Assembly (NCBI GenBank): GCA_945952585.1
Contig: CAMFII010000006.1
Location: 1-64,000, forward strand
Direction: 5' to 3'
Source of the DNA: an uncultured Rhodobacter sp.
Lineage (GTDB): Bacteria > Pseudomonadota > Alphaproteobacteria > Rhodobacterales > Rhodobacteraceae
Length of the DNA: 64,000 nt
Shown here: piece by piece, positions 1 to 19,613 of the stretch
Layout of the letters: every line of letters starts with the position of its first letter
Numbering within the stretch: the stretch's first letter is position 1
Made by a program: the position numbers and the translations under genes
Notes under the pieces: generated by a model
The model's input: the letters and a program-made list of their open reading frames with translations, nothing else
Database searches by the model: none
Told to the model about the DNA's origin: nothing

Positions 1-2
1 CC

Positions 3-221
3 TATGACGAACGCCACTACGTTACCTATCTGCGCCTTCTCGATGCGAAGGCCGAGGGCGCGGACTGGAAGGAAGTCGCGCGGATCGTGCTGCACCGCGA
101 TCCGGCAGCCGAGGAACTTCGGACCTATCGTTGCTGGCAAAGCCACCTCGAACGCGCGCAATGGCTATCGCGAGAGGGCTATCGTAAGATTCTGGAACAG
201 GCGGCAGCTAACAAGGCGTGA
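3..221 (+). CDS. ICE-type short conserved protein, 3' part (partial at window edge)
   Basis: The frame is open from the left edge to a TGA at 219-221 and encodes the last 72 residues. The protein reads as one compact domain with YDERHYVTYLRLL near the start, ADWKEVARIVL in the middle and a C-terminal GYRKIL segment. I recognise this as the short protein found in alphaproteobacterial integrative elements, usually beside DUF6499/DUF2285 regulators (and often itself labelled DUF2285). Function is unknown; a DNA-binding regulatory role is presumed for the family. The start lies outside the window. The neighbours at 1150-1933 are from the same type of element, which supports the call. Confidence 0.6.
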   Translation, partial: YDERHYVTYLRLLDAKAEGADWKEVARIVLHRDPAAEELRTYRCWQSHLERAQWLSREGYRKILEQAAANKA

Positions 222-348
222 GCATCGGCGGTTTTCAGTTTACTTCACCTCGGAAGCTTTGGAATTTCACGATATCCGGCCGGCAGGAATCGACCTCATC
301 GCTGACGTTTCGCGTGGCTTTGTCACGTCCTAAAAGCTGATATGCCTC

Positions 349-882
349 TCAATTGTTGGCCCATTCTGAACAGGTCAACTCATACGTTACCTCGCCGTGC
401 TCCGTGCCGGGTATGGGGTCGGGAAAATCCAAGAAATCCGTCCGCGTGTGTTTCATACCAACCTTCTCCATTACACGGCGCGACCCTTGGTTGACCGCCA
501 TTGTATTGGCCACAATCTTGTCATATCCCGCGACCTCGAAGCCCCAACCGATAAGAGCCAAAGCTCCTTCAGTTGCCAGCCCCTGACCCCAAGCCTCCCG
601 GCGCAGTCGATATCCGATCTGAGCTAACGCCCTCCCTTTCGGCAACAAGCAGAACCAGCCGACAAACTCGTCATCCGCATTGCGTCGCGCTGTCCAGACG
701 TTCGGCTCGGTTCCTCGTGGCATGAGAAACGGCGCGGTCGTCGAATCGATCCTGTCATGATCAACCGCACCATTGTTAAGAAACCGCATCACTTCTGGGT
801 CAAGCTCTAGCTGGATGAAGTTAACACGATCCACCGGAGTGCAAGGACTGAGAATCAAACGCAGCGTCTTTAGTAAGGTCAT
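349..882 (-). CDS. GNAT family N-acetyltransferase (RimJ/RimL-like)
   Basis: This 177-residue protein has the GNAT fold of the RimJ type: a short N-terminal strand-helix region, a VGWFCLLP strand, then IGYRLRREAWGQGLATEGALALIGWGF, written here only to show the Q/R-x-x-G-x-A acetyl-CoA loop near its end. The C-terminal NQGSRRVMEKVGM segment is typical of this subfamily. It probably acetylates a small molecule or protein N-terminus; the substrate cannot be read from sequence. The ATG at 882 is preferred over an upstream TTG at 897 because AGGAA lies 8 bases before it. It sits alone among ICE-type genes, so it may be cargo. Confidence 0.8.
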   Translation of the reverse strand: MTLLKTLRLILSPCTPVDRVNFIQLELDPEVMRFLNNGAVDHDRIDSTTAPFLMPRGTEPNVWTARRNADDEFVGWFCLLPKGRALAQIGYRLRREAWGQGLATEGALALIGWGFEVAGYDKIVANTMAVNQGSRRVMEKVGMKHTRTDFLDFPDPIPGTEHGEVTYELTCSEWANN

Positions 883-1149
883 GGAAAATTTCCTCAAAAT
901 ACATTTCAGGCATGGTCGTGCGAAAACATAGATTAAGCAACGAGTTATTCAGTTGAGAAGCCGCCTTGCCGTTCTTGACACATGAAGCAGTTTGTTAGAT
1001 CCACTCCATTCCTGCTGAAGTTCTCGTAGGAATTCTAAAGTCCGCAACATTTCCCCGAGGGCTGGCTTTCCGGTTCTTTTCGTATCGCACCTCTTTGTTG
1101 CAACGGGCAGTAAGCTTGCGACTTGCAACAAGACGGTGCTCGCTAACGA

Positions 1150-1785
1150 TCAACGCTTGCCGGGCTTGATAGGGTAGTGGAGCAGCAGGCGATAGCCGCC
1201 CCGCATCATCTTGATACCGTGCGCGACCAAGCGGCGAGCTTTGTTCTTGCGCGGATCGTTCTCGAAATCCTCCTTAGTGCCTCGAAAGCCGAGCAGGACT
1301 TCGGCGATGGTGCGATAGCTCTCGCCATGCAGCCGAGCGTCAAGCGCGCGCAGCGACAGGATATGCCATTGCCGGAGCTGGGCAGGGACCGCGCGGAAAT
1401 CGGGACCGGGTGCCCGGCCGTTGAGGGACCGCCAGAAACGGCGGGCAGCGTGAGCGCGAAGCTCCAGAAAGGAATCCATCGGCAGGGTGACGGCATAGAA
1501 GGCGGCGGCGTCGGGAGTCGCCTCGGGAAGCCAGAATTGATGTGTGACGCCATCAACCTGCCAGATACCATGCCAGCCATCGGCAGCGCGGCGCAGATCA
1601 AGGCCGGCGAGATGAGCCAGCGTCAATATCGGTTCGGTGTCGCCGTCCTTATGCTCGACCGGCGACAGCATCACCGCTTGCGGTTGAAGGTTCGGACTCC
1701 AGATTGGCGTCGGCCAGTCATGCGGCGCGTCGGGATCGCACGGGAAATCGCAACCCCCAGCGATCCGCGAACGCTGCAAGGTCAC
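1150..1785 (-). pseudogene. DUF2285 domain regulator, C-terminal part of a frameshifted gene
   Basis: The open frame carries the C-terminal DUF2285-type region: a FWRSLNGR segment, LSLRALDARLHG in the middle, and a final RRLVAHGIKMMRGGYRLLL block that is the hallmark of these ICE regulators. The ATG at 1785 gives about 12 meaningless residues before the sequence becomes family-like (CDFPCDPDAP onward). The preceding DUF6499 half is in another frame and ends just downstream. Removing one G from the G5 run (plus-strand C5 at 1754-1758) joins them as DRWG-CDFPCDPDAPHDW. I therefore read the two frames as one broken gene spanning 1150-1933. Translation as two proteins remains possible. Confidence 0.65.
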
Positions 1786-1933
1786 GGCCGGACGGTCCTC
1801 CGGTTAGTGCGATGGTCTGGAACTCCTGACGATAATCGTCATTCCGGCGCAGATATTCCCAAGCGAAACCGGCGGCCGAAATGTGCTTCGCGTGCCTGTA
1901 TGCCACCGGCGAACGCCAGTCGATGCTAAGCAT
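1718..1933 (-). pseudogene. DUF6499 (transcriptional regulator domain), N-terminal part of the frameshifted gene
   Basis: This 71-residue frame starts at ATG 1933 with GGAGG seven bases upstream. It contains IDWRSPVAYRHAKHI and FAWEYLRRNDDYR, the DUF6499 signature of ICE-borne regulators that normally continue directly into DUF2285. Here the frame runs past the junction as WGLRFPVRSRRAA and stops. The matching continuation is in the next frame (entry 1150-1785), with the switch at a five-G run. The role of the intact protein is thought to be DNA binding in conjugative elements, but no activity is established from sequence. Confidence 0.65.
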
Positions 1934-2010
1934 GGCGTCACCTCCCAAAGCCGGGGCGCGCAAGGCAGCGCCCAGCCCTTAGAGGTTCAAAGATCGCTAG
2001 AAATATAGAA

Positions 2011-2038
2011 GCCGCTCAAAGCAGATACCTTGAGCGGC
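2011..2038. terminator. Stem-loop between the DUF6499 gene and ardA
   Basis: GCCGCTCAA (2011-2019) pairs exactly with TTGAGCGGC (2030-2038) around a 10-base loop. There is no adjacent T run on the minus strand; on the plus strand TTATTTTTTG follows about 20 bases later. A second hairpin, GCCCGCA-AAA-TGCGGGC, lies at 2101-2117 just beyond the ardA stop. Either could end ardA transcription (minus strand), but neither is a classical intrinsic terminator. Confidence 0.35.
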
Positions 2039-2132
2039 CAGTCCGATCATTCTTGGTTATTTTTTGCTTAACACTATTTCGATGATTCCGCGATACGCCC
2101 GCCCGCAAAATGCGGGCAAGGTGCTCCGGTTT

Positions 2133-2663
2133 TCATTGACTGGAAAACACATGCACCTCGTTGTGTGAGGTTTCGACTGTGAAAAACTCACCGTTCATTT
2201 CAGCATCACGGGCCATTGCTTTCCAATCAATGTAGTAGCGCAGCGCCTCGGGGATCGTGGTGCCGCTTTCAGCGGTCAAGTCCTCCATGAAGTCGGCAAG
2301 GCTAGCGAACTGGCCGTGATAGCAGTCCTGCAAGGCGGTTTCGGCTTGGTCCATGTCGCCGACGAACTGCTCCAACAAGCCAGCGCCTAACGCGCCATGC
2401 TCTGCGATGAACGCGCCGATGCGCGCCACGGTGTCGATGCCGGCATATTCCTTGATGGTGACGCCCTCGAAGCCCTCGTAGTCATGGATGGCATATTCCT
2501 CCGCGTGCTCGATGGGGGACCGTGCGAGCATGGCCGCAATTTCGTCCCTGATTTCATCCGCGTCCTGATCCGCGTCGATCCAAGCCCCATGCAGATAGCC
2601 GTTATTGTAGGCAGCAAGGCAGGCGACATAGATGCGGGGATTGCTGTCGGAAAGGTTGGTCAT
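2133..2663 (-). CDS. ardA: Antirestriction protein ArdA
   Basis: The 176-residue acidic protein begins PRIYVACLAAYNNGYLHGAWID and is rich in Asp/Glu throughout, as expected of a DNA mimic. The segments EEYAIHDYEGF and IPEALRYYIDW match the ArdA family, whose members bind type I restriction enzymes in place of DNA and protect incoming conjugative DNA. The length equals that of typical ArdA proteins (about 165-180). The ATG at 2663 is the natural start. Its presence with DUF6499/DUF2285 genes marks this end of the window as a conjugative or formerly conjugative element. Confidence 0.92.
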   Translation of the reverse strand: MTNLSDSNPRIYVACLAAYNNGYLHGAWIDADQDADEIRDEIAAMLARSPIEHAEEYAIHDYEGFEGVTIKEYAGIDTVARIGAFIAEHGALGAGLLEQFVGDMDQAETALQDCYHGQFASLADFMEDLTAESGTTIPEALRYYIDWKAMARDAEMNGEFFTVETSHNEVHVFSSQ

Positions 2664-3171
2664 GTCTCTGATCCTCGGGTTTGGGGTTCAGAGCAGCGAA
2701 GCGCCGCTCCTGAACCCTTGCCGGGCGGCGAGCCACGGGTAGCAAGGCGCAGGAGAAGTCTTTGGCACCGTGGAATAAATGGAGGGGACCCGCTTGCGGG
2801 GAGCGGGCCGTTTATGCCGCGAAAGGCCGGAGAGTTTTCTTGCGCCGCGCGAGGGCAACGCCCTTAGCAATCTTCTTCGTAGCGATCAGATAAGACGCGG
2901 CGGCAGCCGCGCCGGCCCGGAGGCGAACGCGCTTCCACATTGCGCCGTAGAGAGCCGGAGGGCCGCCAGTGACAAAGCCCCGGCGCGCAAGCGTCGGGAC
3001 CGCATTTCTAACTGGCGACAGTCATGCGTTAGGGGATTGAAGCCGAGTGGCGGAAACGCGCCGCTGCCGTGGGTCCGGCGTAGCCGAAGGCCCGGCCCGA
3101 AGGGCGACGCCCATACCTTCCTTACCTTCTTCCGTATTGACAGTGTGGATACAAACGCCCATATTCCGGTC
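2664..3171. other. 508-base non-coding stretch upstream of ardA and tacA
   Basis: No convincing gene is seen here, although long frames are open on both strands because of high GC. The stretch is full of inverted repeats. GGTTCAG (about 2685) pairs with CTGAACC (about 2712) in the ardA leader. There are G/C hairpins around 2783-2812, and a block near 3022-3060 resembles intergenic sequence I associate with alphaproteobacterial ICEs. It probably contains the divergent promoters of ardA and of the toxin-antitoxin pair. Confidence 0.4.
3137..3165 (+). promoter_or_regulatory. Sigma-70 promoter of the TacA/TacT-type pair
   Basis: TTGACA at 3137-3142 is separated by exactly 17 bases from CATATT at 3160-3165. 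This is the best -35/-10 pair I found in the window. Transcription would start about 3172, which is the antitoxin ATG itself, so the message may be leaderless; no Shine-Dalgarno sequence is seen before that ATG. Confidence 0.65.
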
Positions 3172-3513
3172 ATGGCAAAAACACGTCTCGCCCCCTCCGA
3201 ATCTTCCCGCTCTGCGGCCGCTGCCGTCGCGGCGCGCGCCTCTGCGGCTGACGCCAAGGGCAGCATCAACCTGCGTATCGAAACCGGCACCCGCCAGCTC
3301 ATTGACGATGCGGCGGCAGTCCTCGGCAAGACGCGCACCGAGTTCATGGTCGAAAGCGCACGGCGGCAAGCGGTGGATGTGCTGCTCGACCAGCGTTTGT
3401 TCACGCTAGACTCCGAACGCTACGACGCCTTCATGCAGGCGCTCGACAACCCGCCTGCGCCGGGACCGAAGCTCAAGGCGTTGCTGCGCCGGACCCCGGC
3501 ATGGCAGAAATAG
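3172..3513 (+). CDS. DUF1778 antitoxin (TacA-like)
   Basis: The 113-residue protein has a low-complexity Ala-rich N-terminus, then INLRIETGTRQLIDDAAAVLGKTRTEF at about residues 31-57, the ribbon-helix-helix DNA-binding unit of DUF1778 antitoxins. The C-terminal tail (from about residue 75) would wrap the toxin. The antitoxin neutralises the downstream acetyltransferase and represses their shared promoter, as known for TacA/TacT. A longer in-frame opening exists upstream, but the ATG at 3172 coincides with the predicted transcription start and gives a family-length protein. The toxin start overlaps its last 13 bases. Confidence 0.85.
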   Translation: MAKTRLAPSESSRSAAAAVAARASAADAKGSINLRIETGTRQLIDDAAAVLGKTRTEFMVESARRQAVDVLLDQRLFTLDSERYDAFMQALDNPPAPGPKLKALLRRTPAWQK

Positions 3514-4031
3514 ACGACACGCGGGACCATCCTGAATCGGGACTGTCTGCCCCGGCCCCTCTAACGGCGGAACATGATCTTTCGACGTTCGACTGCGGCG
3601 AGCCTGCCCTGAACGACTGGCTGCGCCATCGGGCCTTGAAGAACGAAAGCCGGTTTTCGCGCACCTATGTCGTGTGCGCGGGCAATCGGGTTGTCGGCTA
3701 TTTCTGTATCTCGGCCGGATCGGTTGAGCGGGGTGCGGCTCCCGGCAGGGTGCGGCGTAACGCGCCCGACCTGATTCCGGTTTCGATTATCGGGCGGCTC
3801 GCCGTTAGCCTCGACCATGCGGGCAAGGGCCTCGGCGCGGACCTTTTGGCGGATGCGCTACGGCGGATTGCAGTCGCCTCGCAAAGCATCGGCATCGGGG
3901 CCGTGCTTGTCCAAGCGAAGGATGAAGCGGCCAAACGCTTCTATCTGCGCTGTGCGGAGTTCATAGAGTATCCCGAGGACAGCCGGACGCTGTTCCTGCC
4001 CATCGAAACGGTGGTCGCAGGCTTTGGCTAA
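3501..4031 (+). CDS. GNAT toxin (TacT-like), partner of the DUF1778 antitoxin
   Basis: This 176-residue GNAT enzyme shows the TacT layout: LSTFDCGEPALNDWL near residue 30, YVVCAGNRVVGYFCIS, then VSIIGRLAVSLDHAGKGLGADLLADAL with the acetyl-CoA loop (GKGLG, about residue 115). TacT enzymes acetylate the amino group of charged tRNAs and stop translation. The start overlaps the antitoxin gene, as in other operons of this type, so translation is coupled. The usual role is stabilising mobile elements or defence; here it fits the island context. Confidence 0.85.
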   Translation: MAEIDDTRDHPESGLSAPAPLTAEHDLSTFDCGEPALNDWLRHRALKNESRFSRTYVVCAGNRVVGYFCISAGSVERGAAPGRVRRNAPDLIPVSIIGRLAVSLDHAGKGLGADLLADALRRIAVASQSIGIGAVLVQAKDEAAKRFYLRCAEFIEYPEDSRTLFLPIETVVAGFG

Positions 4032-4219
4032 GAAAAGCAACATTCGAAAGGCGATGCGTCACTGGCGCGCTTAGCATGGGGCCGAATTTGCATGAGCAGA
4101 GCTGTAGATACTTCTGGGCAAGCGCAACCGGCCATTCTACAGTAATGACAGTTAGAGATCGATCGGATGGCTACTGCCGATGATTTGATCCTCAGTTGCG
4201 CTTGTGGGGGGCAAGCAAC

Positions 4220-6470
4220 GTGTTCAGACGGATTAGCAGTGTAAAGAACTTTGGCGTCTTCCATGATTATTCCGGGGGGCAACTACCGGAGTTTGCCAAT
4301 TTCAATCTGCTATATGGATGGAACTACTCAGGCAAGACAACCTTGTCTCGCCTCTTTAGGTGCTTGGAGAAAGGGGAACTCCATCCGGATTATTCCGGTG
4401 CGAAGTTCAGCCTGTCGCACCATGATGGAAACCTATATGAGCAGGATTTCCGTATCCCATGTAATGTCCGCGTTTTCAACGAAGATTTCCGGAAGGAGAA
4501 TCTTCGGTGGGACGATACCAGCGGTTTCACACCGATTCTTCTACTTGGATCAGAAAACATCGAGAAGCAGGATGATCTTACCAAGAAGGAGGAGCAACGC
4601 GAGAAACTCAACACAGAACTGACGGACGGAGAAAAAGAAGCTGCCAAACTGGATAAAATCATCTCCGAAGCGGAAACGGAATGTGCAGGGCAAATCGCAA
4701 GGGAACTAGGGATTGCCAGATTTGACCGACGCCATGTGAGGCCGATTATTGAGGGTTGGAACGGAGCAATACCAGAACCCCTCGATGATGAAAGTTTCCA
4801 GAATGAGAAGCGTAGGGCTGTTGCGACGGAGGAAAAGCCGGTCCTTCCAGACCTTGAACTTAACATTAGAGCGCTGGAGGAGATTTGGTCGAGGGCATCG
4901 GCGTTGGTGGCAGAGCAACTTGGCATGTCTGGAACGATTTCGCGTCTTGTAGAGCATCCAGACATCGGTAGTTGGGTCGAGCAGGGTTTGCATCTTCATG
5001 TTGGTGCTACCCATTGCGAGTTCTGTGAGAATCCTCTGAAGCACGACCGCATTGAGGCGCTTAATGCGCATTTCTCAGACGCATTTGATGATCTGAAAAG
5101 GCGTATTTCTAAGTCGATACAAGAAATTCGGGAGCGCATGCTTCACATCGACGGTGCATCCTATGTGCGCAGTGCATTCTACCCGGACCTTGAAAAAGAA
5201 CACAACGAGGCGGGAGCGGCGCTGAAAGCTGCGCGAGATAAGTTCAATAACGATATACAGGCCCTTATCGAATTACTTGAAAGCAGGTATGAGAATCCGT
5301 TTCGCGCACTCACGGCCCCGGAACAGCAACTAGAAATCGCTAAGCTGGAAGGCGCAGTTGAACGATTTAATCGGCTGATTGAGAAAAACAACGAGCGGAC
5401 TCGCGACTTCGTTCAAGCTCGTAGCGTAGCGATAGAGAAGCTAAAAGTCCACTACGCAGCTGCTACGATGCGCAGGATAGATCGCTTTAAAACTCAAGCT
5501 AAAATTACCGAACTGGAGGAATCCGCCAATAAGGCGAAGAAAGACCTTTCAGTGTTGGATCAGGAAATTGCGACTTTGCAATCGGAACTCTCCAATGCGG
5601 CGAAAGGTGCAGAAGCAATAAATGAGACCTTACTGAGGTTTTTCGGGAAAGCCGATATCCAAGTGAAAGTCACAGCTGAGGGCAATTTTCTCCTGATGCG
5701 CGGAGAACATCCCGCACGCAACCTTAGCGAAGGGGAGAGAACCGCTATCGCCTTTTGCTATTTCGTCACGAAACTCTTTGAGAATGGCAACGTCCTAGAC
5801 GATACAATCGTCTATATCGATGATCCGATTTCGAGTTTAGACGCTCACCATCTGCTCCATATAAACGCATTCATCAAGGAGACGTTCTATAAATTCGATA
5901 GCGACGCTGATCCAAGACATAAATGTCTCGCCAAGCAGATTTTTATATCAACGCATAGCTACGAGTTTTTCCACCTCACTTGGGAGTGGATGTCTGAGCG
6001 CACACCAAAAGGCTTTGGGAAAGCATATCTTGTCGAGAGAATAGACAGTAATGGCCTGATTTGCTCGCGCGTTGTAGAGTGTCCTGAATCAATAAAAAAA
6101 ATACCGATCAGAATATCTATTTCTATTTATACAACTTATCGAATATTCGGAGAATCCATCAAGTGATCCTCAGATCATTTTTAATTTAGGGAATATGGCC
6201 CGCCGTTTTGTAGAGGGCTACCTATCTTTTAAGTTCCTTGAGCACAGCAAAATTGACATCAGTATTCCCAAACTCATTCCCGAGCCATTGAAGGCAGAGC
6301 GCGCGCGCAAGTTCATGCACTTCTATTCCCACGCTTTGAAACGCGCAGGGGGGATGCAACTCCCGGATATGAGCGAGGCCCAAGCTGTTGTGAACATCAT
6401 CCTTGAGGCGATCAGGGCGCATGATCCGGTGCACTACGGGGCACTACAGGCCACCCGTCAACAATCTTGA
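4220..6470 (+). pseudogene. AAA_13 family ATPase (PrrC/RloC-like defence protein), frameshifted at an A8 tract
   Basis: Frame 1 (4220-6166) has Walker A GWNYSGKTTL at about residues 33-42, a coiled-coil middle with a zinc-hook-like HCEFCENPL near residue 265, an ABC-type signature LSEGERTAIAF (about 500), Walker B VYIDDPISSLD (about 530) and the switch ISTHSYEF (about 573). This is the AAA_13 fold of anticodon-nuclease-type defence ATPases. At AAAAAAAA (6094-6101) the frame is lost and ends in meaningless residues. Dropping one A continues as KKYRSEYLFLFIQLIEY straight into the second frame (to 6470), giving a 749-residue protein. The GTG at 4220 is preferred: GGGGGG at 4206-4211 precedes it. 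The nuclease residues of PrrC/RloC could not be assigned, so the effector activity is open. The DNA is visibly lower in GC than the chromosome. Confidence 0.8.
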
Positions 6471-6520
6471 GTTGCCTTTGAACTTGTTGGTTGCCGCTTG
6501 TTGTACCGGAAGATGGTAGT

Positions 6521-7231
6521 ATGAATCGAGTAGCCGCCCCTTCACCTAAAACACTTGAAAAATCTATTGCCGCTTGCATTGCAAACGGCGCAAGATTGCT
6601 TGACGATGCGGTGACGCTTGAGTTTGTAGAGCCGCCGTCAAGCCGGTTATATTTAATACTCATCGCACAGGAAGAGTTCGCCAAGGCGTTTATGTTGCGT
6701 TTGGTGGCTATGGGGATTTTCCCGCTTTCACGTCCGATCCTTCGCGCGATAAATGATCATACTTGCAAGCAGTTGGTAGGCATGTTGATGGACTACATGA
6801 TTATGCACTGGAATGAACTGGAGGAGCTTCATCGCATGATTGATGAAGACCTTGATATGGGGGAGGATCATTTTCCGTTTGAGATCGCCAGTGCACTCGA
6901 TCTGCTTCGTTATGAGAAAATTGCGCGCTGGGAGAGTGGAAACGGGATCTATGTGGGGACCTCTAAGCCGAACCCAGCGGCACTTAAGATCGCAGGAGGG
7001 GAGAAAGATCGTCGGAAGCAGGACGCCCTCTATGTTCGGATAAATCCGGATGGATCGGTGAAAAGCACGCCAAGTATCGTGTCGGATGATGAAGTGAGCG
7101 AAGAAAACGAACGCGCTGGTCGGTATCTATGTTTTGTCAAAGATGCGATGACAGGCGGGCCGGCAACGCATCGGCAGGAAAAGACAATGGCGGCGCTCAG
7201 ACTGCTTTTCACCCATCATCCTCCAGTCTAG
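6521..7231 (+). CDS. AbiV family abortive infection protein (HEPN)
   Basis: The 236-residue protein opens with LEKSIAACIANGARLLDDA and then LYLILIAQEEFAKAFML, the two helices that define AbiV-type HEPN proteins. RAINDH follows at about residues 76-81, which satisfies the R-X4-H motif of HEPN ribonucleases. AbiV of lactococci stops phage by blocking translation; for this homologue the target is unknown. It lies 50 bases after the AAA_13 gene on the same strand, and I infer one defence operon. The ATG at 6521 has GGAAG about 8 bases upstream and is chosen over a TTG at 6491. Confidence 0.8.
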   Translation: MNRVAAPSPKTLEKSIAACIANGARLLDDAVTLEFVEPPSSRLYLILIAQEEFAKAFMLRLVAMGIFPLSRPILRAINDHTCKQLVGMLMDYMIMHWNELEELHRMIDEDLDMGEDHFPFEIASALDLLRYEKIARWESGNGIYVGTSKPNPAALKIAGGEKDRRKQDALYVRINPDGSVKSTPSIVSDDEVSEENERAGRYLCFVKDAMTGGPATHRQEKTMAALRLLFTHHPPV

Positions 7232-7729
7232 TTGGTGGGGATAACTAGTGGATGCCGCAACTCGCGGGTGAGAAGATAGCAAACGAAGGCGCAGGAGGGT
7301 ATGATCGAGATAATCGAGCACATTTGGCGGGTTGGTGTTGATATGCCGAAATTTGCCGTCCTCACCGATAGATGTCGAAATGTCGAGCCTCGTCACCAGC
7401 CCGAAAAGTTCAATAATTTCAAGACTGAACTTTTCTGACGGTAAGCTCGACGGTATCTTGATGTATGAAAAAATATTTTCGCATTATTTTTCAACGCACT
7501 AGGTTATCTCAAAATAATCGAGTGGGAATAACGGTCTCGGGGATCGCCAGACGATTGCAGCCTTCGGGATCTGCTCGGTCCACCTTGCAGGGGTCGTCCG
7601 ACCTTGGCCTATCCTCTGCAATGCCGTGACGTTCAATCACTAACTTGAACGCTTCGTGCCCCGAATTGCGCGAGGCGATCTTTGGCCTAGGCTGAGCCCC
7701 GTGAAGAATCGCCATCGGGGGATAGCGAG
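7232..7729. other. 498-base AT-richer stretch closing the mobile island
   Basis: No gene can be supported. A minus-strand frame at 7509-7715 (68 codons) resembles nothing I know, and a minus frame at 7127-7396 is antisense to the abiV end. The AT-rich tract at 7460-7520 and the return to high GC at about 7550 suggest that the island-chromosome boundary falls here. I see no recognisable integrase or direct repeat. Confidence 0.35.
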
Positions 7730-8602
7730 TTGGATGTCAGACCGGATCGGCAAACAGGATTGTTTCTGCGGCTTCTGCGGTTTCCACTGGTCTTCCTGGC
7801 ACTGCTCTATGCAGTTCTGACCTATCTCTATCTCTCGGCCTTTTTCTTCCGGACCTCATTCACGTCTGGTCCGATCGAGGCGATCGGCGCCACCCTTATG
7901 GCCTGTGCGATGATGTTGATCGTCTATGTGAGCCTCGGGACTCTCGTGGAAGAGCGCAGCGTCACCGAGCTTGCCGTGCCACGGATGGGCCGCGAGTTCG
8001 GGCTGGGGCTGCTGTTGGGCTTCGGCCTTTACAGCCTTTGCATCCTGATCCTGATGGTTTTGGGGGCATACCGGGTCGAAGGGCTGAATGCCTGGCATAT
8101 CCTGTTACCCGGAATGGCCGCCCCCATGGCAACCGGCGTCTTTGAAGAACTGCTGTTTCGCGGTGGCGTGTTCCGCATCGCGGAGAAATGGCTTGGCAGT
8201 TGGATCGCGCTTATCTTGTCATCGCTGATCTTCGGCTTCATCCACATGGAGAACGACGCGGCAACCCTGCAAGGCTTGACGTCGATCTCGATCTGGGCGG
8301 GGCTCCTGCTGACAGGGACCTACATGCTGACCCGCCGGCTATGGCTCGGCATGGGTCTTCATGCCGCCTGGAACTATACACAAGGCACTGTCTATTCTGG
8401 TATCGTGTCCGGCAACGAGCCCGCCACGCCCGGCCTGATACGTTCCAGCATGCAGGGTCCGGCTTGGCTGACCGGCGGAAGCTTTGGCGTCGAAGCTTCG
8501 CTGGTTGCCCTCTTGGTCTGTTCGACGGCCGGGATCGGCTTGTTGGTGGCGGCAGCGCGACGCGGCAATGTCATTCGCCCGTCCTGGGACCGACAGATGT
8601 AA
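7730..8602 (+). CDS. CPBP family intramembrane metalloprotease
   Basis: The 290-residue protein has about eight hydrophobic segments and the CPBP (Abi/CAAX) signatures: GVFEELLFRGGVF at about residues 137-149 (the paired Glu and the Arg), SSLIFGFIHM at about 164-173 (first His) and LGMGLHAAWNY at about 208-218 (second His). These residues bind metal in the membrane. Known members cleave prenylated proteins or act in peptide maturation and immunity; no substrate is evident. The start is TTG at 7730 with GGGGGA at 7717-7722; the next in-frame ATG would remove the first membrane segment. Confidence 0.85.
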   Translation: MDVRPDRQTGLFLRLLRFPLVFLALLYAVLTYLYLSAFFFRTSFTSGPIEAIGATLMACAMMLIVYVSLGTLVEERSVTELAVPRMGREFGLGLLLGFGLYSLCILILMVLGAYRVEGLNAWHILLPGMAAPMATGVFEELLFRGGVFRIAEKWLGSWIALILSSLIFGFIHMENDAATLQGLTSISIWAGLLLTGTYMLTRRLWLGMGLHAAWNYTQGTVYSGIVSGNEPATPGLIRSSMQGPAWLTGGSFGVEASLVALLVCSTAGIGLLVAAARRGNVIRPSWDRQM

Positions 8603-8836
8603 GTTCAGATCAGACCGATGGGTAAACTGCCTGACCAAAGGGGGCCTGCGAGGTTTTGGTCTCCGATGGCTCGGACAAAACAATCTCTGTCCGATCGCAA
8701 TCAGCGAAAGGAGTCGATTGTTCTTTGATCCGAAACGGCTCGTTGGTCTTATACGCGTTGCAAAAAACCCAAGTATGAAGTTTATGTAAACATTATATGA
8801 CAGCTATTCACTGTCTTTGTGTAAAAGGTATCTGGC

Positions 8837-9496
8837 GTGACGAATTCCCTTTTTCGAAGCCTTTGTTTTGCATTCTTGTTCCTTTGGCTCATCAGCGTAG
8901 GACAGGACATCATCGTCTGGATTTCACCGGATATCATCGGTCCTGTCAGAAAGGCCCGCTTCGACGTAAACTCTGAACGCTCCTTCTATACTTGGCTGTC
9001 GAGTTGCATGCTGTTCGTCGCTGCGATCCTCAGCTTCCTGCAAACCCAGTTGCATCAGGATGACCGCAAGATGCGAGTTTATTGGTGCGCCCTGGGGGTT
9101 ATCTTCGTCCTGTTGTCGGCCGATGAAGCCATGTCGTTCCACGAAAAGCTTGGCAAGTTCGTTCCGCATTCGCACAATACCGGCCTCTTGAACTACGCTT
9201 GGGTCATTCCCGGCCTGGCCTTTGTCCTTGTTGTCGGCCTGTCGTTTGTGCGCTTTCTGCTGAACCTCCCCACGCGGGAGCGGCTGCTCCTGATCTTCTC
9301 GGGTGCAATCTTCGTGTCGGGTGCGATCGGAATGGAGATGATTGCAGGGGATCTGGAGGATCACGGCATGCTGGATACCTTCACCTACCGGATCGCCTCC
9401 AACACGGAGGAAGCCCTGGAAGTGCTTGGCGTCCTGCTGTTCATTCGCGTTCTCCTGACGCGCCTTCAGCGTCGCACGGCCGGTCAATTCGCCTAG
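8837..9496 (+). CDS. Uncharacterised multi-pass membrane protein
   Basis: The 219 residues contain about six membrane spans: roughly 8-25, 50-68, 80-96, 118-138, 150-168 and 193-208. An acidic/histidine motif, LSADEAMSFHEKLG, follows the third span near residues 93-106. It resembles an S-x-D-E-x(4)-H-E signature I associate with a broad family of unassigned bacterial membrane proteins, possibly metal-binding. Function is unknown. The GTG at 8837 is preceded by AAAAGG. The gene stands alone with its own AT-rich upstream region (8745-8825). Confidence 0.7.
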   Translation: MTNSLFRSLCFAFLFLWLISVGQDIIVWISPDIIGPVRKARFDVNSERSFYTWLSSCMLFVAAILSFLQTQLHQDDRKMRVYWCALGVIFVLLSADEAMSFHEKLGKFVPHSHNTGLLNYAWVIPGLAFVLVVGLSFVRFLLNLPTRERLLLIFSGAIFVSGAIGMEMIAGDLEDHGMLDTFTYRIASNTEEALEVLGVLLFIRVLLTRLQRRTAGQFA

Positions 9497-9630
9497 CGAA
9501 CGTCGATGAATTTCCGGGCAACCGCCTGATTTTGCGCCCATCTCGCCCAGTAGACCCGGATAGGGCCGACTTGACGTGGCGGCACCAACCGAAGGCGCAG
9601 CCCGCAACGGCCATAGCTTTGCCGCCAAGG

Positions 9631-9659
9631 TTGACGCACCCGTTCCTGTTCGACATACC
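9631..9659 (+). promoter_or_regulatory. Candidate sigma-70 promoter for the TRAP genes
   Basis: TTGACG (9631-9636) and CATACC (9654-9659) are 17 bases apart, placing a start near 9666, about 45 bases before the dctQ-like ATG. A strong Shine-Dalgarno (GGGGAGGA) precedes that ATG. Confidence 0.5.
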
Positions 9660-9709
9660 GAAAGAAAATGACGCCTGCTTTCGGGGCGTGAACGATCAGG
9701 GGAGGAGCG

Positions 9710-10294
9710 ATGAACGTCCTTTTGGGACTGTCCCGGGCCATTGACCGGTTCAACGAGATTGTCGGCAAGGCCATGGGTTGGCTGATCCTGCTGGCTATCA
9801 TCATCAGCGCAACCAATGCGGTCGTCCGCAAGGTTTTCAGCACCTCGTCCAACGCCTGGCTCGAGGCACAGTGGTATCTGTTCGGCGCCGCCTTCCTGCT
9901 AGCCTCGGCCTATACCCTGAAGCAGAACGAACATATCCGTATCGACATCGTCTATGGCATGTGGTCGCGCCGGACCCAGCACTGGATCGACCTGTTCGGG
10001 CACGTCGTCTTCCTCATGCCTTTCTGCCTGCTGATGATCTATTACCTCACCCCTTGGGTGGCTTCGTCCTATCGGTCCGGCGAGGTTTCGACCAATGCCG
10101 GCGGCCTGACGATCTGGCCGGCCAAGGGACTGCTGCTGGTCGGCTTCGTGCTGCTGGCTCTTCAGGGCCTCTCCGAGATCATCAAGAAGATCGCGGTCAT
10201 GCGCGGTCTGATCCCCGATCCCACCCCCTTCGTTTCGGCGCATGAGGCAGCCGAACTGGAAGGCAAGGCGCTGGTCGAGGAGATCGCGAAATGA
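9710..10294 (+). CDS. TRAP transporter small permease (DctQ type)
   Basis: The 194-residue protein has the four membrane segments of DctQ subunits and the conserved stretch SNAWLEAQWYLFGAAFLLASAYTL near residues 44-67, whose W-x-E-x-Q-W residues are typical. It joins the large permease in the inner membrane to drive sodium-coupled uptake. The stop overlaps the start of the large permease (ATGATG at 10291). The binding protein is encoded convergently at 12211-13317. Confidence 0.9.
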   Translation: MNVLLGLSRAIDRFNEIVGKAMGWLILLAIIISATNAVVRKVFSTSSNAWLEAQWYLFGAAFLLASAYTLKQNEHIRIDIVYGMWSRRTQHWIDLFGHVVFLMPFCLLMIYYLTPWVASSYRSGEVSTNAGGLTIWPAKGLLLVGFVLLALQGLSEIIKKIAVMRGLIPDPTPFVSAHEAAELEGKALVEEIAK

Positions 10295-12114
10295 TGGAAT
10301 TCATCGCGCTGAACATGGCGCCGATCATGTTCGCCTCGCTGGTGATCTTCCTGCTGCTCGGCTACCCGGTGGCATTTTCGCTGGCTGCGAACGGCTTGCT
10401 GTTCTTCATCATCGGGGTCGAGCTTGCGCCCCTGTCCGGCGGGTCGATCACCCTTGACTGGCCGCTTTTGAACACGCTTCCCAGCCGGTTCTGGGGGGTA
10501 CTGTCGAACGAGACGCTGCTGGCCATTCCTTTCTTCACCTTCATGGGGATCGTCCTTGAACGATCCGGCATGGCCGAGGACCTGCTTGATACCATCGGGC
10601 AACTCTTCGGACCGGTGCGCGGTGGCCTTGCCTACGCGGTCATCATCGTCGGCGCGCTGCTGGCGGCGACGACCGGCGTGGTGGCCGCGAGCGTGATCGC
10701 GATGGGCCTGATCTCGCTGCCGATCATGCTGCGCTACGGCTATGACCGGCGCGTGGCCTCGGGCGTGATCGCGGCTTCGGGCACCCTCGCGCAGATCATC
10801 CCGCCGTCGCTCGTGCTGATCGTGCTGGCCGACCAGTTGGGCCGGTCGGTGGGCGACATGTACACGGCGGCAATGATACCGGGTCTCGTCCTGACCGGGC
10901 TCTACATGGTCTATATCTTCCTGACCTCGATCTTCCGCCCATCCTATGTGCCGGCCCTGCCGCCCGAGGCGCGGACGCTCGGGTCGGGCGTGGCATCGCT
11001 CGTGGTGGCGATCCTGTTCTGCGTCGCGGTCAGCTACGCCGCGCACAAGATGCTTTACGCCAACTACGGCCCCGACGCCGATATCCTAGGCGCGACAATC
11101 GGGGTGGCGATCATCTATGTCGTGGCGCTGCTGGACAAGACGCTGAAGCTTGGCCTGATGTCGCGCCTCGCGCAGCAGGTCATCATCGTGCTGATCCCGC
11201 CGCTGGCGCTGATCTTCCTGGTTCTCGGCACCATCTTCCTCGGCATCGCCACGCCGACCGAGGGCGGCGCGATGGGGGCCGTTGGCGCATTGATCCTCGC
11301 GGCGCTGAAGGGGCGGCTGAACCTTGGCGTCGTCACCCAGGCGCTGGCGGCGACGACGCGGCTTTCGGCCTTCGTCATGTTCATCCTGCTGGGTGCGCGG
11401 GTCTTCTCGCTGACCTTCTACGGCGTGAACGGGCATCTCTGGGTCGAACACCTGCTGGTGTCCCTGCCCGGCGGCGAGATCGGCTTTCTTATCGTCGTGT
11501 CGCTCCTGGTGTTCTTTCTGGCCTTCTTCCTCGACTTCTTCGAGCTGGCCTTCATCATCGTGCCTCTGCTTGCCCCTGCGGCCGAGCGGCTGGGGATCGA
11601 CCTGGTCTGGTTCGGGGTGATCCTGGGCGTGAACATGCAGACCTCGTTCATGCACCCGCCCTTCGGCTTCGCGCTGTTCTACCTGCGCTCGGTCGCGCCG
11701 CGGTCGTCCTTCATCGACAAGGTGACGGGCAAGCGGACCGACGGGGTGACGACTGGGCAGATCTACTGGGGGGCAGTGCCGTTCGTCATCATCCAGATCA
11801 TCATGGTCGGCCTGGTGATCGCCTTCCCGCAGATGGTGATGCACTACAAGGGCAAGCCGGTCGACACGTCGAACGTGACGATCACCCTGCCGCAGATGCC
11901 GACGCTTGGCGGCGGTCTTGGCCAGCCCGGGGCCTTGCAACCCGGTGGTCTCGGCCAACCCGGGGCGCTGCAGCCCGGCGGCCTTGGTCAGCCCGGCGCG
12001 TTGCAACCCGGTGGGCTGGGCCAGCCTCCGGGCCTTCAGCCGGGCGCAGTCCAGCCGGGCCAGCTTGGCCAACCTCCGGCGGCCCTGCAGCCCGGAGCGT
12101 CATCGACCCCTTGA
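10291..12114 (+). CDS. TRAP transporter large permease (DctM type) with repetitive Gly/Gln/Pro tail
   Basis: Residues 1 to about 530 form the DctM domain with around a dozen membrane spans, the AIPFFTFMG and ASGTLAQIIPPS segments and NMQTSFMHPPFGFALFYL near the end. This subunit forms the sodium-driven transport path. Residues from about 541 to 607 are an unusual extension: three nearly exact copies of an 11-residue unit (GGLGQPGALQP) followed by degenerate copies, from a 33-base tandem repeat. The tail follows the last membrane segment, so it should protrude into one compartment as a flexible low-complexity arm. The gene overlaps dctQ and ends before a strong terminator. Confidence 0.92.
   Translation: MMEFIALNMAPIMFASLVIFLLLGYPVAFSLAANGLLFFIIGVELAPLSGGSITLDWPLLNTLPSRFWGVLSNETLLAIPFFTFMGIVLERSGMAEDLLDTIGQLFGPVRGGLAYAVIIVGALLAATTGVVAASVIAMGLISLPIMLRYGYDRRVASGVIAASGTLAQIIPPSLVLIVLADQLGRSVGDMYTAAMIPGLVLTGLYMVYIFLTSIFRPSYVPALPPEARTLGSGVASLVVAILFCVAVSYAAHKMLYANYGPDADILGATIGVAIIYVVALLDKTLKLGLMSRLAQQVIIVLIPPLALIFLVLGTIFLGIATPTEGGAMGAVGALILAALKGRLNLGVVTQALAATTRLSAFVMFILLGARVFSLTFYGVNGHLWVEHLLVSLPGGEIGFLIVVSLLVFFLAFFLDFFELAFIIVPLLAPAAERLGIDLVWFGVILGVNMQTSFMHPPFGFALFYLRSVAPRSSFIDKVTGKRTDGVTTGQIYWGAVPFVIIQIIMVGLVIAFPQMVMHYKGKPVDTSNVTITLPQMPTLGGGLGQPGALQPGGLGQPGALQPGGLGQPGALQPGGLGQPPGLQPGAVQPGQLGQPPAALQPGASSTP
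11911..12099 (+). repeat. 33-base coding minisatellite in the dctM-like gene
   Basis: About five and a half tandem units of 33 bases encode GGLGQPGALQP. The first three are nearly identical, the later ones diverge (GGLGQPPGLQP, GAVQP, GQLGQPPAALQP). The in-frame period means copy-number changes would lengthen or shorten the protein tail without frameshift. Confidence 0.85.
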
Positions 12115-12156
12115 CGGAGGCGCGGATCGCGCCCCTTCTTCCTCGCCGACAGCAAA

Positions 12157-12186
12157 AAAACCCCGGAGCCAGCGCTCCGGGGTTTT
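12157..12186. terminator. Bidirectional intrinsic terminator between dctM-like and dctP-like genes
   Basis: CCCCGGAGC (12161-12169) pairs with GCTCCGGGG (12174-12182) around a four-base loop. The stem is flanked by a run of seven A on the left and TTTT on the right, so it can end transcription from both converging genes. Confidence 0.9.
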
Positions 12187-12210
12187 CCTTTTTCGGCCCG
12201 GGATCCGGGA

Positions 12211-14550
<2,340 letters not shown>

Positions 14551-14619
14551 GGAATCCAGGGCTTTTCGTAGCGTCCCGTCTGAACCTGGTCCACGGTCAG
14601 GATCGCTTGGGGAGGAAAC

Positions 14620-15723
14620 ATGAAAAACAAACGGGTGGCGTTCGGCGCCACAGCGGCAGCGTTCACTTTGCCCGCAATCGCCATGGCAGGCGGTGTCGAC
14701 CGCTCACCGCAATCGGCCTTCTTGCTGTATGAAGGCAAGAACTACGCTGAATTCACGCTTGGCAACCTGAATCCCGACGTGTCCGGCGTCGCGTCACCGT
14801 TGCTTGGCGGCAGGTCTTCGGGCGAAGTCCTGACCAATTACACCCTGGTCAATTCGGGTGTAAACTGGGTCATCAACGACAACCTGAACCTGGCCTTCAT
14901 CATCGACAAGCCCTTCGGTGCGAATGTCGATTACCCGCTCGGCACCGGCTACTTCGCCCAAGGCACGCTGGCGGAACTCGACACGGTTTCGTACACCGCG
15001 CTGGCCCGCTACAAGTTCGCCTCGCAGTTCAGCATTTTCGGCGGTCTGCGCTACCAGACGCTGAAGGCGAATGCGACCATCCCCTTCGTCCGGGGTTACA
15101 ACATCGACGCGCCGGAAGAAGGCGCCTGGGGCTATGTGCTTGGTATCGGCTGGGAAAAACCCGAGATCGCGGCCAAGGTGGCGCTGACCTACAACTCGGC
15201 CATCGACTATGACCTGACCACGAACGAGTCCTCGGCGCTCGGCACCCTGAGCAGCAGCGCACCGGTCAAGACTCCCCAGTCGGTCAACCTCGAGTTCCAG
15301 ACCGGCATCGCCACCAACACGCTGCTGTTCGGTTCGGTGCGGTGGGTGGACTGGGAACAGTTCGGCATCGACCCGGCAATGTATGGCGCGATGACGGGGC
15401 AGCCGCTGGTGTCCTACAATGGTCCGACGACGACCTACACCATCGGTCTTGGCTACAAGTTCAACGACAAATGGTCGGGGGCAATCAGCTACGCCTATGA
15501 CACCCCGCTGGACGGCTACACTTCGAACCTGAACCCGGTCAACGGCTACAATTCGATCGGTGCGGCGGCGACCTATACGTGGAACCAGCTCAAGATCACG
15601 GCCGCCATCCGCTATTATGATGTCGGGGATGCCGAGACTGCGGCGGGCAAGATCGCCCCTGCCGGCATCTTCACTGGCAACAGCGCCATCGGCGCGGCCG
15701 TCCGGATCGGCTATTACTTCTGA
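14620..15723 (+). CDS. Outer membrane protein, OmpP1/FadL/TodX family
   Basis: The 367-residue protein has a Sec signal (to AMAGGVDRS, cleavage about residue 23-24), then alternating beta strands ending IGAAVRIGYYF, whose terminal Phe is the outer-membrane insertion signal. The body fits the FadL/OmpP1 barrel, with NYTLVNSGVNWVINDNLNLAFI early and AISYAYDTPLDGY late. FadL proteins pass long-chain fatty acids or other hydrophobic compounds across the outer membrane. GGGGAGGA precedes the ATG. A GC hairpin follows the stop (15729-15757). Confidence 0.85.
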   Translation: MKNKRVAFGATAAAFTLPAIAMAGGVDRSPQSAFLLYEGKNYAEFTLGNLNPDVSGVASPLLGGRSSGEVLTNYTLVNSGVNWVINDNLNLAFIIDKPFGANVDYPLGTGYFAQGTLAELDTVSYTALARYKFASQFSIFGGLRYQTLKANATIPFVRGYNIDAPEEGAWGYVLGIGWEKPEIAAKVALTYNSAIDYDLTTNESSALGTLSSSAPVKTPQSVNLEFQTGIATNTLLFGSVRWVDWEQFGIDPAMYGAMTGQPLVSYNGPTTTYTIGLGYKFNDKWSGAISYAYDTPLDGYTSNLNPVNGYNSIGAAATYTWNQLKITAAIRYYDVGDAETAAGKIAPAGIFTGNSAIGAAVRIGYYF

Positions 15724-15728
15724 TCCCA

Positions 15729-15757
15729 TGGGTTCCGCCTGTCTGCCGGGCGGAACC
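15729..15757 (+). terminator. Hairpin after the FadL-like gene
   Basis: GGGTTCCGCC (15729-15738) pairs with GGCGGAACCC (about 15748-15757). Only a short T-poor tail follows, so it may slow rather than fully end transcription. Confidence 0.5.
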
Positions 15758-15805
15758 CGCAGTTTCCGGGTCGCGACACCTGTCCTGCGCTGCTAGATCA
15801 GTTGC

Positions 15806-16735
15806 ATGACACCTCAGAAGCATATCAGCGCCCGCGCCTGGGGCGAACTCCTTCTCCTCGCGATGATCTGGGGCGGGTCCTTCATCGCCAACCGCCTTGC
15901 CATCAACGAGATCGGCGTCCTGGGGACCGTGGCCTTCCGCGTGTGCGGGGCCTGCCTGCTCCTCTGGATGTATGTCGCGCTGCGGGGCCTCCCCGTGCCG
16001 CGGTCGCCGCGCATCTGGGGCGCGTTCCTGGTCATGGGGGCGCTGAACAATGCCATCCCCTTCTCGCTCATCACCTGGGCGCAGCTGACCGTCCCCTCGG
16101 GGCTGGCGGCGATCCTCAACGCTTCGACCGCGCTGATGGGGGTCGTGGTCGCGTCGATCGTGTTCCGGGACGAGCGGCTGACTGGGCGGCGGCTGGGGGG
16201 CGTGCTGCTCGGCCTTTCGGGGGTGACGGTCGTGATCGGGCTGCAGGCGCTGACCGCGCTCGACCTGACCTCGCTCGCGCAGGTCACGCTGCTGGTCGCC
16301 GCGCTCTCTTATGCCTGTGCTGCGGTTTGGGGGCGGCTGAACCTGTCGGGCCTGCCGCCGCAGGTGGCGGCGGCCGGGATGCTGACCGGTTCGACGCTGC
16401 TGATGGTTCCGGCCGCGCTGGCGGTCGAGGGCTTGCCCCCGGCCCCGGCCGCCGGCACCTGGCTGGCGCTGGCCTACCTTGCCGTGGTGTCCACCGCCGG
16501 GGCCTACCTTCTCTACTATCGCGTCCTTGCCCTTGCCGGGGCCGGGAACCTGAGCCTTGTCACACTGCTGACCGCCCCCTTCGCGGTGATCCTTGGCGCG
16601 GTCGTCCTGGGCGAAAGCCTGCCGCTCCGCGACTACCTCGGCTTTGCCCTGATCGCGGCGGGGCTGGTGGCCATCGACGGGCGCATCCTGCAACTGGCGA
16701 AGATTCCGCGTGAAATCCGGCCGCCGGTTCGCTAG
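15806..16735 (+). CDS. DMT superfamily (EamA) transporter
   Basis: The 309-residue inner membrane protein has ten helices in two EamA units. LAMIWGGSFIANRLAI at the N-terminus, the NNAIPFSLITWAQ segment and LGEXLPLRDYLGFALI-type ending are characteristic (X is Ser here). It is likely a metabolite exporter of unknown substrate. The ATP-binding gene follows 27 bases later, so it may lead the ATPase-metA-hydrolase operon. It is not closely similar to the DMT protein at 13633-14514, so they look like distant relatives rather than a recent duplication. Confidence 0.85.
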   Translation: MTPQKHISARAWGELLLLAMIWGGSFIANRLAINEIGVLGTVAFRVCGACLLLWMYVALRGLPVPRSPRIWGAFLVMGALNNAIPFSLITWAQLTVPSGLAAILNASTALMGVVVASIVFRDERLTGRRLGGVLLGLSGVTVVIGLQALTALDLTSLAQVTLLVAALSYACAAVWGRLNLSGLPPQVAAAGMLTGSTLLMVPAALAVEGLPPAPAAGTWLALAYLAVVSTAGAYLLYYRVLALAGAGNLSLVTLLTAPFAVILGAVVLGESLPLRDYLGFALIAAGLVAIDGRILQLAKIPREIRPPVR

Positions 16736-16762
16736 GACACGGGCGGAACCGGAGAGGCAGGC

Positions 16763-17632
16763 ATGATCTACCAGACGGCGGCAGAGTGGCGCGCGGCGGG
16801 CGCGAAGCGCGTGCTGATGTTCGGCATGTCGGGGTTGGGCAAGACCTACCTCGCCAACATGCTGCGCGATCAGGCGCACTGGTTCCACTATTCGATCGAT
16901 TACCGCATCGGCACCCGCTACATGGGCGAGTTCATCGCTGACAACTTCAAGCGCGAGGCGATGAAGGTGCCGCTGCTGCGCGAGCTGCTGATGACGGACT
17001 CGGTCTACATCGCGTCCAACATCACCTTCGACAACCTCGCCCCGCTGTCGACCTATCTCGGCAAGCCTGGCGATCCGGCCAAGGGCGGCGTCCCGTTCGA
17101 GGAATACTGCCGCCGGCAGGAACAGCACAGGGTGGCCGAGATCGCGGCGCTTCTCGACACGCCGCGCTTCATCGCGCGGGCCAAGGACCTCTACGGCTAC
17201 GACAACTTCGTCTGCGATTCCGGCGGGTCGATCTGCGAAGTGGTGGATGCCGACAATCCGGCCGACCCGGTGATGAAAGTCCTGTCCGAGAACCTGCTGA
17301 TGGTCTGGCTCAAGGGCTCGGAGGCGCATCGGGCCGAGTTGATCCGTCGCTTTGACCGGGCGCCGAAGCCCATCTACTACCAGCCCGAATTCCTGCGCGA
17401 GGTCTGGGACAACTATCTGATGGAACAGGGACTTCCGGCCGATCGCGTTGATCCTGACGCCTTCCTGCGCCATGCCTATGCCCGCCTTCTCGACCATCGC
17501 CAGCCCCGCTATGCCGCGATGGCCAAGTGGGGCGTCACCGTCACCGCCGAAGAGGTGGCAAGCGTCCGCGACGCCGCCGGCTTCACCGACCTCATCGCCC
17601 ATGCCCTTGAGCGGCGCGGCGAACCCGCCTAA
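16763..17632 (+). CDS. P-loop ATPase of unknown function, upstream of metA
   Basis: The 289-residue soluble protein has Walker A GMSGLGKTYL at about residues 22-31 and then HWFHYSIDYRIGTRYMGEFI. An internal FVCDSGGSICEVVD (about 152-165) could be the Walker B/sensor region. It looks like a small kinase-type P-loop protein, and I have a memory of it beside metA in Rhodobacteraceae, but no activity is known to me. It is 27 bases from metA, so co-transcription is likely. Methionine synthesis may be linked, but that is only context. Confidence 0.7.
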   Translation: MIYQTAAEWRAAGAKRVLMFGMSGLGKTYLANMLRDQAHWFHYSIDYRIGTRYMGEFIADNFKREAMKVPLLRELLMTDSVYIASNITFDNLAPLSTYLGKPGDPAKGGVPFEEYCRRQEQHRVAEIAALLDTPRFIARAKDLYGYDNFVCDSGGSICEVVDADNPADPVMKVLSENLLMVWLKGSEAHRAELIRRFDRAPKPIYYQPEFLREVWDNYLMEQGLPADRVDPDAFLRHAYARLLDHRQPRYAAMAKWGVTVTAEEVASVRDAAGFTDLIAHALERRGEPA

Positions 17633-17659
17633 GTAACCGGCTTTCCCAGGAGAGGACCA

Positions 17660-19532: not shown

Positions 19533-19550
19533 TGTCACTACAAATGACAT
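19532..19550 (+). promoter_or_regulatory. Palindrome in the promoter region of the TetR-cupin operon
   Basis: ATGTCA (19532-19537) and TGACAT (19545-19550) form an inverted repeat with a 7-base centre, and a related GTGTCACGAAATGA occurs about 19585. This suits autoregulation by the TetR protein encoded at 19614. Confidence 0.45.
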
Positions 19551-19613
19551 GAATTGACGAAGCCGGATTTTCATGGCACATACAGTGTCACGAAATGAAG
19601 AGCTGAGTCGCCC

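Follow-up and report, generated by a model that had tools for sequence, protein, structure and literature searches.

The window considered here is a stretch of 64,000 nucleotides from an uncultured Rhodobacter sp. (NCBI GenBank assembly GCA_945952585.1, contig CAMFII010000006.1, positions 1 to 64,000 of the forward strand), and the subject of this analysis is a pair of genes within it (Table 1). The upstream gene encodes an ATPase of the RloC type whose frame shifts at eight consecutive A, and the downstream gene encodes a HEPN protein of the AbiV family. An earlier note on this DNA had described an ATPase and a HEPN gene 50 bases apart on one strand, in DNA of lower GC content, and had proposed that they may act as a joint sensor-effector system against phage. 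Its account of the layout holds. The HEPN start codon (ATG, 6521) lies 50 bases past the stop at 6470 that closes the remainder of the ATPase gene, with an alternative TTG start possible at 6491. GC content is 0.46–0.50 in 1-kb windows across 4001–7500, against 0.54–0.64 to the left and 0.53–0.70 to the right as far as 20000. Both genes also fall, by their profile matches, within anti-phage families (RloC/PDC-S06 and AbiV).

Table 1. Coordinates of the gene pair, its motifs and its neighbours in the window (ORF, open reading frame; aa, amino acids).
Feature	Position	Strand	Basis
RloC-type gene, head and coiled-coil part, 648-aa ORF	4220..6166	+	GTG start; AAA_13, PDC-S06 and PrrC profiles
Walker A (GWNYSGKTT)	4316..4342	+	In-frame translation; stretch aligned in 10 RloC-like proteins
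Zinc-hook motif CEFC	5015..5026	+	CxxC in 10/10 aligned RloC-like proteins and 22/22 viral-contig relatives
ABC signature LSEGE	5723..5737	+	Read in ORF; aligned among RloC-like proteins
Run of eight A where the frame changes	6094..6101	+	Longest homopolymer of the 64-kb window; aligned to intact L008
Out-of-frame C-terminal nuclease domain	6102..6470	+	Other frame, open to stop 6470; 90% identical to intact residues 622-749
Triad Arg and Glu (R-X3-E; R661/E665 of L008)	6201..6215	+	Out of frame with head
Triad His (H704 of L008), Ser before	6330..6332	+	Out of frame with head
AbiV-family HEPN protein, 236 aa	6521..7231	+	ATG start; PF18728, TIGR04498
RAINDH, R75 to H80	6743..6760	+	H80 invariant in 11/11; position 75 Arg in 9/11, Lys in 2/11
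K166 to Y171, expected place of canonical HEPN His	7016..7033	+	K166 and Y171 invariant in 11/11; motif assignment putative
Block shared with Nitratireductor sp. ZSWI3 (L008 2487-5674)	4056..7235	+	82% nucleotide identity, unrelated flanks
ArdA antirestriction gene	2133-2663	-	Pfam; left of cassette
TacA antitoxin (tested as 3187-3513)	3187-3513	+	Pfam; just left of cassette
GNAT gene after TacA	3501-4031	+	Pfam; presumably TacT

The window ATPase matched AAA_13 with an E-value of 5e-123 and the PADLOC profile PDC-S06 with an E-value of 1.7e-129, so that these are not chance matches, and the PADLOC PrrC profile aligned over its ABC head (E 1.6e-14). The zinc-hook-like stretch HCEFCENPL and the ABC signature noted earlier were both read in the ORF, as was the D-loop IDDPISSLD. 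Proteins of the RloC family are described as combining PrrC-like ABC motifs with a coiled-coil insert bearing a zinc hook, as ranging from 658 to 897 aa, as starting with GUG in 13 of 70 cases and as carrying a C-proximal triad, Arg-X3-Glu-X36-52-His, often with Ser before the His (PMC2610378). An intact relative was identified in Nitratireductor sp. ZSWI3 (locus L008), where it stands directly upstream of a HEPN gene. It is 749 aa long, which is the length that the earlier note had given for the repaired window protein, and the GTG start is common to both genes. The L008 protein carries Walker A, Walker B, CEFC, LSEGE, IDDPISSLD and the linchpin His, together with the triad R661-X3-E665-X38 with S703-H704, and PDC-S06 matches it over its full length (E 1.7e-155). 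The window and L008 ATPases are 84.7% identical over residues 1–628 and 96.7% identical over the last 91 residues.

The triad is well kept among relatives. Its pattern fits nine of ten aligned RloC-like proteins, the exception being L028 with Asp for Glu; R661, S703 and H704 are invariant in all ten and E665 is nearly so. For viral contigs, 22 of 25 loci were tested (L047, L064 and L067 were left out) and the pattern fits 19, two of these with Asp for Glu, the misfits being L048 (Cys for Ser), L070 and L071. A further alignment of 19 proteins, comprising P0003, L045 and 17 of the 22 viral-contig proteins (L052, L053, L056, L070 and L071 left out), has the Arg and the His in every sequence, Glu in 17 and Asp in two at the acidic position, and the Ser in 18. 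The RloC of Geobacillus kaustophilus lost its anticodon nuclease activity when any one of its triad residues was mutated (PMC2610378). When the ten RloC-like proteins were compared by hhalign with eight PrrC proteins (the strong matches L031–L038, taken from matches in 24 of 150 genomes), the alignment spanned both triads with a probability of 97.3% and an E-value of 2e-11. The resemblance to PrrC and RloC proposed in the earlier note is borne out by this alignment, by the zinc hook and by the triad of the intact protein. The PADLOC PrrC profile also crosses the nuclease domain of the RloC-like protein of L045, which is 59% identical (464-732 on 104-340 of 372, E 1.9e-17).

In an AlphaFold model of the L008 protein (mean predicted local distance difference test score, pLDDT, 81; predicted template modeling score 0.55), the domain spanning residues 631–748 is all-helical, with R661 and E665 on helix 650–671 and H704 at the end of helix 689–703. 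This placement fits the HEPN scheme, in which helix 2 carries an acidic residue and helix 3 ends with the catalytic His (PMC3710099). The model also has long helices (111–163, 322–358, 374–419 and 422–457), in keeping with a putative coiled-coil insert around the zinc hook. Foldseek ranked Rad50 and other SMC-like heads first, the best PDB match being Rad50 7zr1 (E 2.3e-8). On all the sequence criteria applied, the intact ATPase belongs with the RloC-type anticodon nucleases, and its triad, its all-helical C-terminal domain and the PrrC alignment through the triad predict that it carries a nuclease of its own.

The window copy departs from this form at the run of eight A. The codons past the run give the 648-aa ORF an out-of-frame tail to the stop at 6166, and the frame change accounts for its being shorter than the 749-aa L008 protein. 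As the change precedes the triad, the nuclease domain of the window copy is out of frame. In the other frame no further stop occurs before 6470, and the ORF at 6195–6470 alone matches PDC-S06 (E 1.7e-10), with AAA_13 below its cut-off. Between the window and L008 genes the ratio of non-synonymous to synonymous divergence (dN/dS) is 0.09 before the break, where dS is 0.91, and 0.02 after it, the latter being rough since dS there (1.25) is near saturation. Such strong constraint after the break says that the frame change is recent or unreal and not old decay. As it is written, the window RloC is probably inactive, or produced only through rare slippage on the run. An RloC-like gene in a viral-contig record (L046, 3522–5872) is split into two overlapping frames, and from this case broken RloC copies seem to occur elsewhere too.

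The HEPN protein exceeded the cut-offs of two curated AbiV models by narrow margins, scoring 32.0 bits against PF18728 HEPN_AbiV (cut-off 27.1) and 28.0 bits against TIGR04498 AbiV_defense (cut-off 27), and HEPN_AbiV was its sole Pfam match at E 1 or better. Among 11 AbiV-type sequences (eight close and three distant), eight columns are invariant, and these include H80, K166 and Y171. The earlier note had read RAINDH as an R-X4-H motif. The motif is present and its His is kept throughout, but it was not accepted as a proven catalytic HEPN motif, as AbiV proteins are reported typically to lack the His of Rx4-6H and to have another conserved His in an insert between helices 2 and 3 (PMC3710099). 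H80, which follows helix 40–63 in a weak model of the window protein, is probably this alternative His, and K166 to Y171 would then mark the place of the lost canonical one. Since position 75 is Arg or Lys in all 11 sequences, conservation of R-X4-H is higher than expected by chance, and H80 could form a working R-X4-H site together with this basic residue. A phmmer search of the HEPN protein against the PDB returned only short stretches of designed beta-trefoil proteins and no HEPN entry. The AbiV of Lactococcus lactis interacts with SaV, a protein of the phage, and is probably a general inhibitor of translation (PMC3231927), and no operon partner is listed for AbiV in the accessible text of the HEPN survey (PMC3710099).

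The two genes, with little else, make up a 3.19-kb block shared with L008. Its edges are those of the local alignment, a single hit at an E-value limit of 1e-3 when the whole window was compared with L008 by blastn, and they fall 164 bases before the RloC start and 4 bases past the HEPN stop. Gene order and strand are the same in both places, with an intergenic spacing of 50 bases in the window and 48 in L008. To this extent the earlier view of the two genes as a unit is upheld, the block being found in two unrelated contexts. For the HEPN gene dS is 0.70 and dN/dS 0.11, and synonymous divergence is of the same order in the HEPN and RloC genes. The shared block, the similar dS and the low dN/dS point to a shared history in which both genes were kept under purifying selection. 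The flanks in L008 hold a ParB-like protein and, approximately 2.8 kb on, a relative of PD-Lambda-5_A (8484–9848; PADLOC, 2.5e-74), which together with the pair perhaps forms a small defence island.

Conserved co-occurrence of the two families, which the earlier note had put forward as a check on joint action, was not what the survey found. The HEPN gene accompanies RloC at two of 42 RloC-like places and RloC accompanies the HEPN gene at two of eight HEPN-subfamily places; the window and L008 are the two in both counts. The RloC-like places are those with a profile E-value of 1e-20 or better (the window, L003, L006–L008, L023–L028, L040–L046 and L048–L071). Copies of the window itself (L001, L002, L005, L018, L022, L029, L030 and L072) and L047, which is on the contig of L045, were left out, and L052/L053 and L055/L056 were counted although they resemble near-copies. 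The HEPN-subfamily places are the window, L008 and L009–L014; L004 agrees with L010 in length and in its match, and seems to be that contig. The flanks examined extended for approximately 1.5 kb or less at some loci and up to approximately 6 kb at others, and for less at contig ends. Within them no RloC gene was found beside the HEPN relatives L009–L014, and no HEPN gene beside the nearest other RloC relatives, L003 (53% identical) and L045, where the record starts at the RloC gene and only the downstream side is visible. A weak tblastn match to the RloC head at L013 (85 residues, 31%, E 2.7e-4), approximately 7 kb from the HEPN gene, was not counted. As both pairs descend from one ancestor, they represent one independent pairing.

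A scan of genome contigs with the HEPN protein gave seven loci, L008 among them. In 196 genomes of the same order the HEPN protein was found only in its own genome, and in 385 genomes of the same class in its own and one other. PF18728 matched in seven of 398 same-phylum genomes at E 0.001 or better, four of them over the cut-off, and in the flanks examined RloC stood beside such a match only in the window's own genome. In a plasmid collection searched by tblastn at E 1e-5, the ATPase was found in 246 of 72,556 records and the HEPN protein in none, and at the limits used no HEPN relatives were found in viral contigs, plasmids or phages. At L060, L061 and L068 the RloC-like gene abuts a downstream ORF of 1030–1047 aa, a putative restriction-modification (R-M) subunit. 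In a viral-contig record (L045, 1–4424) the RloC relative has Fic and ArdA genes as neighbours; the literature already contains RloC-like genes together with genes of the DOC superfamily (PMC3710099) and two RloC genes with ArdC (PMC2610378). At L009 (7401–10711) the HEPN gene occurs approximately 0.6 kb downstream of a TraG/type IV secretion system coupling gene, with a small ORF between them, and is perhaps conjugative cargo. In the open PubMed Central text available, no description of RloC or PrrC beside AbiV was found, and RloC is entered as not tested in PMC12322248.

To the left of the pair, Pfam matches confirmed the ArdA and TacA genes of the earlier note; the partner of TacA is a GNAT gene, for which its name TacT is presumably right. 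A RovC-type DNA-binding domain (1150–1785, minus strand) and a proteobacterial regulator-like domain (1718–1963, minus strand) lie in separate overlapping frames, possibly as one gene with a frame change. Among six other genomes of the same genus, one (G914) gave a match to the DNA that follows the pair on its right (query 7236–9700), and this match starts only at approximately 8704. The left part is thus not shared with G914, and an island edge may lie beyond the right end of the CAAX protease gene (7730–8602). No tRNA genes were found in positions 1–20000 of the window, and counts of promoters and terminators across 3900–7700 were the same as in shuffled sequences.

Taken together, these data make it likely that the locus is a mobile cassette of two abortive-infection devices, a frame-broken ATPase of the RloC family and a solo AbiV-like HEPN protein, and not a sensor with its effector. 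By analogy with other RloCs, the Rad50-like head and zinc-hook coiled coil of an intact protein would respond to DNA breaks, an ATP-driven change would free the C-terminal HEPN domain, and the freed domain would cut tRNA anticodons and so stop translation; tRNase activity, control by the zinc hook and activation by inducers of DNA breaks have been published for other members of the family (PMC2610378, PMC3874168). The AbiV-family protein, which stands alone in most places seen, would probably block translation itself during infection, by analogy with its L. lactis counterpart. The two genes would have reached two unrelated contexts as one unit, by inheritance or by movement, and in the window genome the HEPN gene is probably the one still working. 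A joint sensor-effector machine need not be assumed, since a nuclease is predicted within intact RloC itself. The proposal of an ATPase sensor that depends on the HEPN protein finds no support. The earlier note had named two outcomes that would refute it: the rarity of the two genes as neighbours was observed, and of an ATPase that carries a nuclease and works alone, the nuclease is now predicted from sequence and working alone is what we infer from other RloCs (PMC2610378, PMC3874168). The pairing itself is real but rare and mostly ordinary defence cargo.

A true two-gene module, in which RloC holds or activates the HEPN protein, or in which the latter is a second RNase or guard released when RloC is blocked, was demoted from the leading proposal in view of the RloC triad in the intact ATPase and the rarity of the pairing. 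It would explain the conserved order, strand and spacing in the window and L008, the block edges that fit the two genes so closely between unrelated flanks, and the matching synonymous divergence. AriA, which in PARIS works with a separate Toprim nuclease, AriB, is moreover the best PDB match of the RloC profile (8ux9 and 8v45, over the first 73 positions only). However, the closest relatives apart from these lack the partner gene in the flanks examined (HEPN without RloC at L009–L014, RloC without HEPN at L003 and, on the downstream side, at L045) and both observed pairs come from one ancestor, and with a nuclease domain already predicted in RloC we hold cooperation to be unlikely. Several findings nevertheless weigh against the main reading. 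The tight block could mean that the genes need each other. In the window and L008 proteins the PADLOC PrrC model extends no further than the ABC head, and the Rad50 matches have low TM-scores (0.22 for the best one, query-normalised). The structure model of the HEPN protein is weak (pLDDT 65); none of its Foldseek matches reached E 0.001, and the sole HEPN-titled entry among the best 50 of 531 matches was 4nqf_B, at rank 37 (probability 0.82, E 1.5). A two-RNase RloC system, whose head would also control the HEPN protein in trans and in which loss of the nuclease domain would be tolerated in the window because the head serves the separate effector, as a natural split of an ABC-HEPN fusion, is quite improbable in our estimation.

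The frame change admits other readings as well. It may be a mere sequencing or assembly error in the run of eight A, which would leave an intact RloC beside the HEPN gene. The exact coincidence of the break with the window's longest homopolymer, the purifying selection that appears strongest after it (roughly estimated, with dS near saturation) and the reading frame free of stops to 6470 would all be expected from such an error, but eight-base runs are also mutational hotspots and a recent mutation would give the same pattern; we regard an error as quite possible but less likely than not. The run could instead be a slippage or contingency site that keeps RloC very low or switches its expression, and so allows safe carriage of a toxic nuclease. 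RloC expression is reported to be self-limiting and predicted to be low (PMC2610378), and the nuclease part is well preserved, yet the run is absent at the aligned place in L008 and is thus not conserved between the two copies, and such a role seems improbable.

An apparently new pairing of ATPase and effector is in this way returned to a known family, and the predicted nuclease of the intact relative explains why. Should the two proteins cooperate after all, this would be the first joint action of RloC and AbiV in the open literature searched, and a route to understanding how AbiV-like proteins are triggered. Should they not, the pair is ordinary defence cargo of mobile DNA.

Among known systems, PARIS resembles the pair in that a small effector-like gene comes after the gene of an ABC ATPase. 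It differs in that the neighbour in the window is HEPN_AbiV and not Toprim, and in that ATPases of the window type have their own predicted nuclease domain; AriB is named in the abstract of PMC12409363. PrrC shares the ABC motifs and the triad, with an alignment that begins at the ABC signature and reaches the triad His, whereas the eight PrrC proteins have 336–409 residues and no CxxC and the L008 protein has 749 aa and a zinc hook. PrrC is also reported to be linked in every case to an R-M system of type Ic (PMC2610378). Membership of PrrC was rejected on size, on the zinc hook and on there being no HSDR_N match in the window's own genome. The HEPN protein is like L. lactis AbiV in passing both curated cut-offs, and its invariant His, Lys and Tyr also occur in three distant members of the family, but it is only 19–22% identical to those members and, at 236 aa, is longer than L. 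lactis AbiV (201 aa). The closest likeness is to RloC, in the ABC head, the CxxC zinc hook within a coiled-coil insert and the GTG start, and, when L008 is set against the published motif rule, in triad spacing, Ser before His and length; the window copy differs in its out-of-frame nuclease domain and in the AbiV-like gene that follows. PDC-S06, a candidate single-gene system of PADLOC, matches the intact protein at full length with no difference found, and is presumably the same family as RloC under a candidate name.

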